From contig JANQHY010000017.1 in NCBI GenBank assembly GCA_028282395.1, positions 1-6,628 on the forward strand: DNA of 6,628 bases, read 5' to 3'. The DNA is from Gammaproteobacteria bacterium (lineage in GTDB: Bacteria; Pseudomonadota; Gammaproteobacteria; UBA12402). The position numbers and the translations under genes are program-made. The notes under the pieces are model-generated. The model was not told the DNA's origin. It saw only the letters and a program-made list of their open reading frames with translations, and ran no database searches. Below, piece after piece: positions 1,963 through 6,628 of this stretch (position 1 is its first letter; every line of letters starts with the position of its first letter).

Positions 1963-3159
1963 ATGAGAAAAAGCAATAATAAATTAACTATCATAATGTT
2001 ATGTTTACTTATTCCCTTAAGTGGTGTGGGTATTGATGTTTATGTTCCTTCATTACCTGCGATCTCTCATGTTTTTGATGTGCCTGATAAATACGCACAA
2101 TACTCAGTGTCAGTTTACTTATTTGGATTTGCTCTGGCTCAGCTAATATTAGGACCATTATCAGATACATATGGCCGTAAAAAAATATTATTGCTGGGTT
2201 TATTAATCTTTAATTTAGGCTGTTTTATGTCATTATTTTCATTTGGTATGGGCATGTTTTTAATATCAAGATTTATTCAAGGAGTGGGAGTCACAGCTCC
2301 AGTTGTAATAGCGAAGGCTGTTGTTACTGATAGATTTGTTGGAGAACAGTTAAAGGTAGTTTCCACCTACTTGGTAACAGCTTGGTCTGTCGGGCCAATT
2401 GTTGCTCCTGCAATTGGTGGTTTTTTACAACATTATTACGGATGGCACGCTGGGTTCTATTTTTTGGTAACTCTGGCCTCTTTGTTGATGGTTCTAGTGA
2501 TATTATTCTTCCAGGAAACTAATGATAATCCAGTGCAACTTAAATTATTTAAGATTTTTATGAGTTATAAAGAGATATTGAAAAATATTGATTTTATTCT
2601 TTGTATTTTATGCATGTCGATGACCTATTCCTTTATTACTATTTTTAATGTCTTGGGGCCTTTTTTAATACAAAAAGTCTATCATCAGTCGGCTTTAGCT
2701 TATGGTCATATTGCATTGTTATTAGGAGTTGCTTGTTTTATGGGGAGTTTATTTAATCGCTATGTTGTTATGAGACTAAGTCAGCTAGTTATTGTCTCAT
2801 TTGGAACTAGTTTACTTATTACTTTGAGCCTGTTAACTCTTATGCTTTCCTATGTTTCAAATAGTCTATTCGTTTTGTTGTTACCCGTTTTCATGATTAT
2901 GTTCGTTGTTGGTTTTTTATTTCCTAACTTTTCTTCCTATACGCTGGGTCGGTTCGTTACAATGGCCGGTGTTGCCAGCGCAATTATAGGTGTTGTTAAT
3001 ATAGCAGGTAACGTAATTACAACATCATTGGTAGGTGTTACAGACAGTAAATCAGTGCAGGAATTGGCAATTTTTTATGTTTCTATTTCAGTTATTACGC
3101 TGATGCTTTATTTGACTGTCAGACTGGCCCCCTTCGCAAAGCGGAGGATTAATGATTAA
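1963..3159 (+). CDS. MFS exporter, Bcr/CflA-type (DHA1) efflux protein
   Basis: A 398-residue, very hydrophobic inner-membrane protein, the usual length for the 12-TM drug:H+ antiporter family 1. TM1 (about residues 9-31) carries GIDVYVPSLPAI, the Bcr/CflA signature (D-x-Y-x-P-x-LP) with an acidic residue, D25. Motif A, GPLSDTYGRKK, spans 64-74 in the loop after TM2. The antiporter motif C (GPIVAPAIGG) is at 144-153. The central loop is about residues 185-209, and the protein ends in a short basic tail (KRR). Bcr/CflA proteins export drugs, amino acids such as cysteine, and secondary metabolites in exchange for protons. As first gene of a biosynthetic-looking operon it probably exports the product. 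The ATG at 1963 has no Shine-Dalgarno sequence, only TAAATTATCTTC in front, but it is placed correctly before TM1. The last 8 bases overlap the start of the methyltransferase gene. Confidence 0.9.
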   Translation: MRKSNNKLTIIMLCLLIPLSGVGIDVYVPSLPAISHVFDVPDKYAQYSVSVYLFGFALAQLILGPLSDTYGRKKILLLGLLIFNLGCFMSLFSFGMGMFLISRFIQGVGVTAPVVIAKAVVTDRFVGEQLKVVSTYLVTAWSVGPIVAPAIGGFLQHYYGWHAGFYFLVTLASLLMVLVILFFQETNDNPVQLKLFKIFMSYKEILKNIDFILCILCMSMTYSFITIFNVLGPFLIQKVYHQSALAYGHIALLLGVACFMGSLFNRYVVMRLSQLVIVSFGTSLLITLSLLTLMLSYVSNSLFVLLLPVFMIMFVVGFLFPNFSSYTLGRFVTMAGVASAIIGVVNIAGNVITTSLVGVTDSKSVQELAIFYVSISVITLMLYLTVRLAPFAKRRIND

Positions 3160-3788
3160 CCTTAATGCCATCAAAGAAACATTTAATAAATGGGCGCTAA
3201 ATGGTAGGTCAGAGCAAATGGCTGCTGGGCATGCGTATTCTGTTGCTCATATGCTGCAATCGATAACAATCTTATATGAGAGATATTAACTTTTTGGATA
3301 TTGGATGTGGTAATGGCTGGGTTGTAAGGAAAGTAGTTGATAGTCCTGTATGCCAATATGCATATGGTATTGATGTCTCAAATGAAATGGTTAAATTGGC
3401 AAATGAAAGACGAGAAACGCAAAAAGAATTTTTTGTGTGTTCTGACTTCAACTCTTGGGAATATGATGGTCAATTCGATGTGGTGTTTTCAATGGAGACA
3501 GTTTATTACATTAACCCTTTAGAGGAAGCTGTCCGTAAAATACATAAACTTACCAAGCCAGATGGTATCGTGATTGTAGGTATTGATTATTACGAAGAAA
3601 ATAATAGCAGTAAATCTTGGTCTGATATGGTCGGTCTCGAAATGATACGAAAAAATATACCTTTTTGGAAAGAGGTATTTCTTCAGTCCGGCTTTAAAGA
3701 CGTAACTATATCAAATATCTGTGATCCTAATGCCACTGAGCGCTGGAAACAGCAGTTTGGTACTTTGGTGATAACGGCTAAAAAATAA
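3152..3788 (+). pseudogene. Class I SAM-dependent methyltransferase, split by a frameshift
   Basis: Translation should start at the ATG at 3152, which has a perfect GGAGG at 3143-3147 and overlaps the exporter stop by 8 bases. That frame gives a typical N-terminal helix region (FNKWALNGRSEQMAAGH) but stops at TAA 3287-3289. The catalytic domain continues one frame over, open from 3267: FLDIGCGNGW (SAM-binding motif I), YGIDVSNEM (motif II with acidic residue) and FDVVFSMETVYYI. Restoring two bases in the GA tract at 3278-3283 joins the halves into a 212-residue protein, a normal size for this family. Without it, a 170-codon frame from ATG 3276 remains, lacking both the N-terminal part and a ribosome binding site. 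The intact enzyme would transfer methyl from SAM to an unknown small molecule. The next gene overlaps its stop by 1 base (TAATG). It may be a true mutation, a sequencing error or a recoding site. Confidence 0.8.
3278..3283 (+). repeat. (GA)3 tract at the methyltransferase frameshift
   Basis: GAGAGA lies inside the 20-base overlap (3267-3286) of the two methyltransferase frames. A fourth GA unit would give an uninterrupted LYERDINFLDIGCG reading. Loss of one dinucleotide by slippage is therefore the simplest explanation of the break. Confidence 0.5.
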
Positions 3789-4588
3789 TGTGGGGCAAAA
3801 CGGTGTTTTATAAAATGGTGAGCGGAGCAGATAAAATAGAGACTGCATTGCCGCTAGTGCTGGTCTCGGGGATTATGTGTACTAAAGATATGTGGGCAAA
3901 ACAGGCCGCATACTTTGATAAGGTGACTGAGGTTATTATAGTTGAAACAATAACAGAGAGTTCTATTCCAGCGATAGCTGAGAGTATTATTTCGCAAGTC
4001 AAAGGCAGATTTAATATGGTCGGCTTTTCTTCTGGTGGTTACGTTGCTCAAGCCTTAGCATTATCATTTTCAGATAGAGTAAACAAGTTAATTTTAATGA
4101 ATACGTCGGGTGCAGGTTTTTCTGAATCATTGCAAGCAAATCGGGTTAAATTAATTGATCTTTGTAAAACAGTAGGTGTGGTTACAGGTTTAAAAGCCTT
4201 TGAAGAGAAGTTAAATTCAACCTATATTTCAGATGACACAATCGTAGCATTCAATCGTTCTATGATTTGTAGTATCGATAAACATATCTTTTATAACCAG
4301 ATGTGTGCTGTTGTTGAATTTAATAAGCTTCGTGCTGAAGTAGAACTTATTACATGCCCTACATTAATTGTAGCTTCAGACAATGATCCATTTATGAAAG
4401 TAGATGAAGCGCATAAATTGGTAAAGTCGATAAAACCCTGCCAATTGAAATTATTCTCTGGCGGTGGGCATATGTTGCCAATAACCATGTCAGATGAGGT
4501 TAATGGTGTTATCGAACAATTTTTTGGTTATTCACACTATCCATCCAAAAAAGCGAAGGGAGATAGTTATGCAGTCTATACATGCTAA
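3788..4588 (+). CDS. Alpha/beta-fold hydrolase
   Basis: A 266-residue cytoplasmic protein, the normal size for a single-domain alpha/beta hydrolase. Seen: the first strand and oxyanion region LPLVLVSGIMC (21-31), a nucleophile elbow GFSSGG (79-84) with Ser81, a cap region about 115-185, an acid strand LIVASDNDPF (193-202) with Asp200 as likely acid, and GGGHML (225-230) with His228. The complete Ser-Asp-His triad points to an active enzyme such as an esterase, thioesterase, amidase or lyase-type hydrolase. The substrate cannot be told from the sequence. The start ATG shares one base with the methyltransferase stop (TAATG), so translation is coupled. The C-terminal tail (SKKAKGDSYAVYTC) is encoded by the same bases as the ribosome binding site and start of the next gene, a 20-base overlap. 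Role inferred: release or tailoring of an intermediate in the opine-type pathway, or self-protection by hydrolysis. Confidence 0.88.
   Translation: MWGKTVFYKMVSGADKIETALPLVLVSGIMCTKDMWAKQAAYFDKVTEVIIVETITESSIPAIAESIISQVKGRFNMVGFSSGGYVAQALALSFSDRVNKLILMNTSGAGFSESLQANRVKLIDLCKTVGVVTGLKAFEEKLNSTYISDDTIVAFNRSMICSIDKHIFYNQMCAVVEFNKLRAEVELITCPTLIVASDNDPFMKVDEAHKLVKSIKPCQLKLFSGGGHMLPITMSDEVNGVIEQFFGYSHYPSKKAKGDSYAVYTC
4556..4562 (+). promoter_or_regulatory. Ribosome binding site that sets the TrfA-like start
   Basis: AAGGGAG sits 6 bases before the ATG at 4569. The same frame is open further upstream to an ATG at 4494, but that start lacks such a site and would overlap the hydrolase by 95 bases, so 4569 is preferred. 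Confidence 0.75.
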
Positions 4589-5330
4589 ACCGGTTGATAT
4601 TTTTAGAGTTAAATCAACAGTTCCTAAGTATCTATTACAAGGATCACTTTTTGCTGCTTCCAGAATTGCAACCCCACCTATAGATAACATAATACAAATG
4701 TATGATGGTAAAGAGCTTGAGGTACATCACCGAGGATTTACTCAATTCGATTTGGCCGTATCCCTTGCTTATAAGAGAATCATTAATCAACATCGCAATT
4801 TTGATGACATTAAATTTTCTATAGCTGAATTTGCAAGAGCGCTTAATCGTATTGATGGTGGTAAAACAAGACAGTTTATCCTTGAAGCATTCCGTAAGAG
4901 TAATGATTTTCACTTGTGTTTTGATTTTGGTACAGGTCGTTCATTTGATGGAAGTCGGCTTAATAGTTTTCGTGAAACAAGAAAAAATGTCTTCAACGTT
5001 TCATTCAATATGGACTATTTGTCGATGACTTATGACTCTACAGATACTTGTGATATTGATATAGACATGTTCATGAGCCTTCAGTTAGGTTTGCAAAGCT
5101 GGCTGTATGGCTTCATCTGTTCTGTGCCAGAACTAGACCATATTGATATTGATCTTTTATATCGTTTTTCTGGGTCAAATTACAAAAATTCGTCGGATTT
5201 TAGGAAAGCCATCAAAGAAGCATTAAGTGCATTATATAAAAAAGGGATATTGGGTTGGCGTCATGGTATAACCAGGTATGGAGAGGTTTTTTGGGAATAT
5301 AAGAATCCCTTTCAACGATTTTTGGGGTAA
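4569..5330 (+). CDS. TrfA-like replication initiator homologue within a metabolic operon
   Basis: A 253-residue soluble protein resembling the TrfA initiators of broad-host-range plasmids, which have tandem winged-helix domains and bind iterons. Visible matches, in order: VPKYLLQGSLF (18-28), like the family's ilRSaLF block; YDGKELE (45-51) then FTQFDLAVSLAYKR (57-70), the 'tGe-x-L-x-Q-x-D-x-x-V' block; FSIAEFARAL (83-92) and a helix with KTRQFILEAF (99-108), probably a DNA-binding helix; VFNVSFNMDYLSM (141-153); and FSGSNYKNSSDFRKAIKEAL (200-219), corresponding to the GS...FR..l..AL end block. True TrfA starts plasmid replication by opening the origin. Here the gene sits between a hydrolase and an opine dehydrogenase in a tight operon, so a co-opted transcription or copy-number regulator is plausible. 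It overlaps the hydrolase by 20 bases and ends 6 bases before the next start. Family call is moderately firm; function is inference. Confidence 0.7.
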   Translation: MQSIHAKPVDIFRVKSTVPKYLLQGSLFAASRIATPPIDNIIQMYDGKELEVHHRGFTQFDLAVSLAYKRIINQHRNFDDIKFSIAEFARALNRIDGGKTRQFILEAFRKSNDFHLCFDFGTGRSFDGSRLNSFRETRKNVFNVSFNMDYLSMTYDSTDTCDIDIDMFMSLQLGLQSWLYGFICSVPELDHIDIDLLYRFSGSNYKNSSDFRKAIKEALSALYKKGILGWRHGITRYGEVFWEYKNPFQRFLG

Positions 5331-5336
5331 CTTTGT

Positions 5337-6353
5337 GTGATTGCTGTTGTAGGAGCTGGGTCTGTCGGATGTGTGTTTGCTGCATATCTATCAACGATTA
5401 AACAAAAACGAGTAATTCTATATCATGACGGTAATCACAAAGGTCATGTACCTTTTATTCAGTTGGATCAATTTAAAGTATCAGGCGCATTAAACTTTTG
5501 CTCCCAGCCTTTTGAAATTACGACTGATATTGGATACGCTTGTAGTAGTAAGGTCATTTTTATTTGTTTACCATCTTTTGCCCAGTATGAAATCTATGAG
5601 TCTTTTAGTTCTTACCTCACTATAGACCATAAGGTTGTCTTTATTACAGGAAACTTTGCTGCTTTACGTATTGCTACAGAATACAGAGGGATTGATATTC
5701 CTAAATTAGCGGAAGTATCTGTTTCGCCATTTGCTTGTAGAATTATTGACGGGCATGCCGTTATTTTGGGTGTGAAAAAATGTTGTCACTTTGGAGTGTT
5801 CGGTCAGTGGCAAAAAAATGAAATTACTGAGGTGATTAAGTTATTCCCCTGTGAGCTGCATCATTGTAATAATATTCTTGCGGTAGGTTTACAAAATATG
5901 AATGGGCTTTGCCATCCAGCTTCAATGATTTTTAATGCTGCCCGAATCGATAATGGAGAGCAATTTTATTATAGTCGTGAAGGAGTGAGCACCATGATTG
6001 CACGATATATTGAGCAGATTGATAAAGAGAGATTGACTATTTGTCAAGCTTTAGGAATTTCATCTGGCAGTTTTTTGGAGATAATGGCGGCTTATTATGG
6101 TGAAGAATTTAATACTGTTGGCGAATTTTTCAAGTGTAATACGGTACTTAACAAGTCAAAAATCTGCCCAAGTATGTTAAACCATCGCTATCTTACAGAA
6201 GATGTTCCTTTTGTTCTTGTACCTTGGTTGAAAATGGCAGAACGTTTTAAAATTAACGTGCCGTATTTAAAAAACTTGGTTAACATGGCTTCGCTGTTAT
6301 TGAATCAAAACTTTTATAATTTAGGGTTCGAGCCATCTAATTGTTTGGACTGA
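5337..6353 (+). CDS. Opine dehydrogenase (octopine/nopaline dehydrogenase family)
   Basis: A 338-residue NAD(P)H-dependent enzyme, slightly short for the family (about 350-430). The N-terminal Rossmann domain starts at residue 2, with GAGSVG at 6-11 and a nucleotide-domain strand VIFICLPSFAQYE (73-85). The C-terminal opine-dehydrogenase domain carries GLCHPASMIFNAARID (190-205) with catalytic-type His193, FYYSREG (210-216), IDKER (228-232), HRYLTEDVP (283-291) and a helical end with LVNMASLLL. The R-x-x-x-x-D spacing of Arg284 and Asp289 equals that of Arg324 and Asp329 in scallop octopine dehydrogenase, where His212 completes the catalytic set. The family reductively condenses the amine of an amino acid with a 2-oxo acid, giving opines or opine metallophores such as staphylopine. 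The start is GTG at 5337, 6 bases after the previous stop, behind a weak TGGGG. No nicotianamine synthase-like gene is present, so substrates are unknown. Confidence 0.88.
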   Translation: MIAVVGAGSVGCVFAAYLSTIKQKRVILYHDGNHKGHVPFIQLDQFKVSGALNFCSQPFEITTDIGYACSSKVIFICLPSFAQYEIYESFSSYLTIDHKVVFITGNFAALRIATEYRGIDIPKLAEVSVSPFACRIIDGHAVILGVKKCCHFGVFGQWQKNEITEVIKLFPCELHHCNNILAVGLQNMNGLCHPASMIFNAARIDNGEQFYYSREGVSTMIARYIEQIDKERLTICQALGISSGSFLEIMAAYYGEEFNTVGEFFKCNTVLNKSKICPSMLNHRYLTEDVPFVLVPWLKMAERFKINVPYLKNLVNMASLLLNQNFYNLGFEPSNCLD

Positions 6354-6404
6354 TAACCTACACATTGGACTAAGGCCCGATATCTTGGACCAGTGCCCAG
6401 AACC
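6345..6404 (+). repeat. Three direct repeats at exact 20-base period, iteron-like
   Basis: TTGGAC occurs at 6345, 6365 and 6385, exactly 20 bases (two helical turns) apart. The units also share CC at positions 13-14, and units 2 and 3 share GCCC at 11-14, giving TTGGACTRANNCCC. The first unit covers the last two codons and stop of the opine dehydrogenase gene; the others are intergenic. Spacing and size resemble iterons bound by replication initiators, or a tandem operator before the gene at 6494. Confidence 0.5.
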
Positions 6405-6493: not shown

Positions 6494-6628
6494 ATGGTCA
6501 AGATAATCGGTAAATTTGGAAGTGATGGTAACCAATCACTTTTACTAGAACTACCGAGTTCACTTTTACAAGATATTGAAATTGCAGCCGATGGCACTGT
6601 TGAAATAGGGTCATTAATACGAGTGCTC
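6494..6628 (+). CDS. Start of an unidentified gene, cut by the window edge
   Basis: The ATG at 6494 follows AAGGGAG at 6482-6488 with a 5-base spacer, the same strong ribosome binding site used by the TrfA-like gene. The frame is open for all 45 remaining codons and runs off the right edge. It begins MVKIIGKFGSDGNQSLLLEL and continues with a short acidic region; no signal peptide or membrane segment is visible. I do not recognise the family. It is separated from the opine dehydrogenase by 140 bases holding the 20-base repeats, so it may have its own promoter (a TATACA at 6448-6453 is a possible -10) and could belong to the same pathway. Confidence 0.6.
   Translation, partial: MVKIIGKFGSDGNQSLLLELPSSLLQDIEIAADGTVEIGSLIRVL

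Follow-up and report, generated by a model that had tools for sequence, protein, structure and literature searches.

Background

Can a gene of the type that starts plasmid replication become an ordinary regulator of a metabolic operon, or does an operon with such a gene in its midst simply travel on a replicon that depends on it? This question is raised by a gene at positions 4569..5330 of a gammaproteobacterial contig of 6,628 bases (G+C 0.366), analysed here in its entirety and called the window below (window coordinates refer to the forward strand, on which its genes described below lie). Plasmid initiators are known to repress their own promoters. Among the literature matches listed, none reports a TrfA-type gene within a metabolic operon. 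The original prediction had recognised TrfA-like blocks in this gene and had left the choice between a regulator and a replicon to be made; our analysis bears out its reading of fold and family. On that choice we lean towards a recruited DNA-binding regulator, with a probability of about 0.45.

A diverged member of the TrfA superfamily

The open reading frame running from an ATG at 4569 to a stop at 5330 encodes 253 amino acids, is preceded by GGGAG, which resembles a ribosome-binding site, and contains the blocks GSLF, TQFDLAV and GSNYKNSSDFRKAIKEAL just as they had been described. A chance, non-coding frame was considered and rejected on the basis of 13 homologues, all with E 3.5e-58 or better in our first protein search, and of the 47 columns that are invariant when the window protein is aligned with 12 homologues (P0001, 99% identical to the window protein, is omitted from this alignment); judging from these comparisons, the gene is real. 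Its family is rare: a profile search retrieved 15 proteins from 5.8 billion sequences, 12 of which come, according to the source column, from a single assembled collection (lgn) only and one from a 76-kb NCBI contig, and for 4 of the 13 homologues the contigs measure between 8 and 76 kb (P0004 8 kb, P0002 16 kb, P0013 26 kb, P0006 76 kb). No match was found for the window protein at E 1, or for the member P0006 at E 0.1, in phage records, nor was any convincing relative found among solved structures searched by sequence. Pattern scans (two over GTDB contigs, one over IMG/VR) gave 0 confirmed members; such scans, like word searches, rely on conserved words, and diverged members may escape them. 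As far as its sequences tell, this is a sporadic family of strongly diverged members.

The profile check proposed earlier, against PF07042 (TrfA), came out negative, since a Pfam scan at the gathering score did not pick up the window protein with this model. Similarity to TrfA by profile is nevertheless present: hhalign aligns the family profile with that of 12 TrfA sequences over 234 columns, nearly the full length, with a probability of 99.3% and E 2.3e-20, and the same family profile matches plasmid TrfA proteins of Methylobacter (2.2e-16) and Arsenophonus (1.1e-15). When the member P0008 was used as the query, 46 of 72,556 plasmid records matched at E<=1, the best at E 1e-7, and 16 of the 20 among the matches listed are annotated as trfA; in a second set of homologues this holds for 11 of the 12 among the matches listed. 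There is also some likeness to RPA (PF10134): at E<=0.1 this model picks up 7 of the 13 proteins of the family (best 9.2e-6); P0008, the best of them, stays under the curated cut-off (25.8 vs 27 bits), and the window protein itself has no such match. In a tree from which P0001 and the short P0016 are omitted, and which carries its own warning that long branches meet, three branches are seen: the window family (support 100/99), the plasmid TrfAs (100/99) and chromosomal copies from another gammaproteobacterial order (83/86). The window family thus differs from plasmid TrfA in forming a separate deep branch.

The structure prediction suggested earlier gave a confident model (pLDDT 88.6) with two predicted winged-helix domains of the initiator type, whose structural matches are RepE54, RctB and Pi, with TrfA as a weaker one. 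RepE54 of mini-F, RctB and Pi of R6K initiate replication at known origins, and differ widely from the window protein (about 8-13% identity). Taken together, the profile kinship and the predicted model make the assignment to the TrfA superfamily firm; the fold by itself cannot separate a regulator from an initiator.

A gene run with an exporter and an opine-type dehydrogenase

The gene (rep hereafter) is the fourth of five. The run opens with a Bcr/CflA-type MFS exporter (1963..3159; TIGR00710 above cut-off, PF07690), followed by a SAM methyltransferase gene (3152..3788) which apparently occupies two frames, 3152-3289 and 3276-3788, overlapping at 3276-3289. PF08241 matches the second of these; the first has no Pfam match, and we infer that it belongs to the same gene, the split being apparently either a real frameshift or a sequencing error. 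Then come an alpha/beta hydrolase of 266 amino acids (3788..4588; PF00561), rep, and an octopine/nopaline-type dehydrogenase starting with GTG (5337..6353; PF02317 with E 4.1e-37, PF02558). The 20-base overlap with the hydrolase frame and the near-abutment to the dehydrogenase gene, 6 bases away, are both as first reported. With junctions of -8, -1, -20 and +6 bp the five genes are likely one transcription unit, co-transcription being deduced from the spacing, and rep has the co-directional, tight arrangement with enzyme genes that one would look for in a regulator of the operon.

The remainder of the window is of a different kind. A C-terminal fragment of an Ntox46 toxin domain (25-255, by Pfam), which we take to be Tse6-like, begins just past an in-frame stop close to the contig end, and is followed by a Tsi6-like gene (248-529, by Pfam) and an SseB-like gene (602-1438), whose product passes the PF14581 and PF07179 cut-offs and falls far below that of the NCBIfam SseB model. 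By our reading of the frames, the stretch 1440-1962 holds no long gene; its frame is broken and it may be a gene remnant. At the other end, a frame without a Pfam match opens at 6494 and is cut short by the contig end. Rfam gave 0 matches in the window at the gathering score, and the DNA of the whole window matched neither plasmids nor E. coli genomes. The idea of a defence island found no support: a PADLOC scan of 5 of the 8 window proteins gave no match at 0.01 for rep, the dehydrogenase, the hydrolase or the SseB-like protein, and matched the methyltransferase to mads_2 (4.6e-14) and MTase_II (0.0019).

A protein search with the dehydrogenase, which needed exact five-residue words, found nothing beyond the protein of the window itself (1 of 2,970 candidates), so that the linkage of rep with the dehydrogenase looks specific to this contig; judging by sequence, other family members do not detectably share this neighbour. 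More distant relatives do occur, in 2 of 369 genomes drawn from the class at 1e-10 (31% and 27% identity) and in 271 of 72,556 plasmid records (best identity 30.6% among the matches listed). An exporter is near the dehydrogenase relative at three of four loci inspected: an overlapping MFS-like frame, by our reading of it, in the 31% genome (G360, L031), an adjoining MATE gene in Paraburkholderia, and a MATE gene two genes upstream in Agrobacterium; at the 27% locus (G168, L032) none was recognised. It is a fair guess that the operon makes an opine-like product which is exported.

A possible plasmid or integrated-element initiator

The chief alternative to a recruited regulator, and one we regard as quite possible, is that rep serves to initiate replication of a plasmid or integrated element with the operon as cargo; the origin would then lie off the contig or be the short TTGGAC array. 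In its favour are a predicted full-length initiator fold with TrfA kinship, named homologues that are mostly annotated as plasmid TrfA, and a sporadic, strongly diverged family; the 271 plasmid records with distant dehydrogenase relatives and the three direct repeats described below point the same way. The window protein itself, on the other hand, has no match at 1e-5 in the 72,556 plasmid records, and partition, mobilisation and transfer families are absent from the 8 window frames scanned. No end-to-end overlap of the contig is found among the repeats listed.

The repeat tests found no periodic array of iterons in the 6.6 kb, which extend 4.6 kb to the upstream side of rep and 1.3 kb to its downstream side, and the window's top periodicity value was reached by 39 of 100 shuffles; the periodic direct repeats expected near the initiator gene of an iteron replicon were not found there. 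What does exist, as the original prediction had noted at 6345-6404, is TTGGAC in three copies with an exact 20-bp period (6345..6390, at 6345, 6365 and 6385, the only occurrences in the window with both strands counted), candidate binding sites that lie 1,015 bp downstream of rep, share bases with the 3' end of the dehydrogenase gene and are situated ahead of the 6494 frame. Of 100 whole-window shuffles, 2 contained any 6-mer triple with a constant period of 15-30 bp; outside the TTGGAC core the copies match poorly (26 of 46 columns at lag 20), and the 66-column periodicity test does not single them out. The word is absent upstream of the operon. These repeats could be operator sites for the 6494 frame or the remains of an origin. 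One exact DnaA box, TTATNCACA at 4528-4536, was discarded as evidence for an origin, one-mismatch matches being fewer than expected (6 vs 11.7).

We compared the window with 11 plasmid trfA loci, taking flanks of 1.5 to 4 kb (L025 is clipped at the record start, and a twelfth TrfA, L033, was left out of the repeat tests). In nine of them, no farther than about 1.1 kb from trfA, there is an array with a period of 21-23 bp that exceeds every one of 100 shuffles, with plasmid values of 41 to 66 of 66 columns, and the window gene differs from these in having no detected array beside it and in sitting between enzyme genes. The other two (L026, L030), like the window, have no array in the flanks examined, which speaks for the plasmid alternative, as does the fact that in RK2 the origin is far from trfA. 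As regards spacing, an annotated same-strand gene starts <=50 bp downstream at none of the 11 plasmid loci, against 6 bp in the window, and one ends <=25 bp upstream at two (L022, L029); these counts are soft because the PLSDB gene table is incomplete. A contig as short as this one (6,628 bases) may be part of a plasmid.

TrfA-like genes apparently off plasmids

A profile search at 1e-8 matched 3 of the 369 genomes from the class, each twice. These 3 belong to one other gammaproteobacterial order, in which two TrfA-like paralogues are present in all three genomes examined, with profile E values of 4.0e-22 to 5.8e-25; hhalign relates them to the window family at 99.4% (E 5.3e-21). PF07042 is passed by one of the four copies scanned (23 vs 22 bits). 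In G321 a single contig of 3.05 Mb carries both paralogues; those of G104 and G221 lie on smaller contigs, 8 to 58 kb long, and the genes around them are alike by eye where seen. Their neighbours, also by eye, are housekeeping-like (Hsp33-like, SRP54-like, PEP carboxylase-like, MurB-like, HldE-like). The closest pair of each paralogue has a dN/dS of about 0.11, which indicates purifying selection. At two of two loci checked (L017:6060-7272, L013:5729-6796) a Phage_TAC_7 (tail assembly chaperone) gene follows the TrfA-like gene; no other phage genes were recognised by eye in the surroundings.

No exact 8-mer array was seen at any of the five loci tested out of the six (all but L016). A looser test found weak periodicity at L015 (21 bp, 37 of 66 columns, reached by 0 of 100 shuffles, about 1.5 kb from the gene) and at L016 (37 of 66 columns, reached by 1 of 100), both below the plasmid range; the periodicity result for L018 is void because the self-match is full from the first base, as in all its shuffles, which we read as a masked stretch, and its 8-mer result stands. 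Among 394 genomes from the E. coli order there were 0 matches at 1e-8, 299 genomes of the phylum gave 1 at 1e-6 (E 1.4e-9), and 274 relatives of G321 gave 4 at 1e-5, three of them already known genomes (the genome draws overlap and their counts are not additive).

TrfA-type genes apparently off plasmids thus exist, in a family distinct from that of the window. These paralogues resemble the window gene in profile and, at the five tested loci, in the absence of an exact-repeat array; they differ in their separate branch, and in standing alone among apparent housekeeping genes whereas the window gene sits in a metabolic operon.

Discussion

The regulator side rests on three observations, namely the lack of an iteron array in the 6.6 kb, the tight embedding of rep on both sides, and the relatives on a contig of chromosome size elsewhere. 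There is also a precedent, since in Pseudomonas aeruginosa a plasmid TrfA is reported to bind a host promoter and to repress it (PMC12691604). Two points count against it: the chromosomal homologues are on a separate branch, and one of their loci (L015) shows weak 21-bp periodicity. The more specific claim that rep regulates its own operon is weakened because the TTGGAC repeats come after the operon and because no relative of the dehydrogenase was found in the protein search, the latter being the strongest objection to a conserved regulator.

Under the regulator reading, a strongly diverged DNA-binding protein of the TrfA superfamily would have been captured into an operon for the synthesis and export of a small molecule; the captured protein would be co-expressed with the operon and would most likely act as a local transcription regulator, contacting DNA through its second winged helix, and the TTGGAC repeats may mediate control of the operon or of the frame that follows it at 6494. 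That a TrfA-type initiator was domesticated here as a regulator of an opine-like operon, in parallel to a separate chromosomal domestication, with two paralogues, elsewhere, is a more tentative proposal, which we consider rather doubtful as it stands.

It is improbable that rep is a mere passenger, a mobile-element initiator gene recombined into the operon without a functional link and possibly decaying: the dehydrogenase linkage seemingly confined to this contig, the hydrolase reaching 9 to 20 residues beyond its two best profile matches (ends 257 and 246) and into rep, as might result from gene ends having fused, and the signs of a disturbed region (the frameshifted-looking methyltransferase, the toxin-domain fragment at the contig start) would fit such an event, but the rep frame is intact and keeps the invariant residues of its family, a 99% identical copy (P0001) is present on another contig, and the G+C of rep (0.354) matches that of the operon genes (0.345-0.368).

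A copy built into a metabolic operon, together with chromosomal copies that lack origin repeats, would show that the initiator fold can leave plasmids and turn into an ordinary regulator, and would caution against taking a trfA-like gene by itself as the mark of a plasmid.
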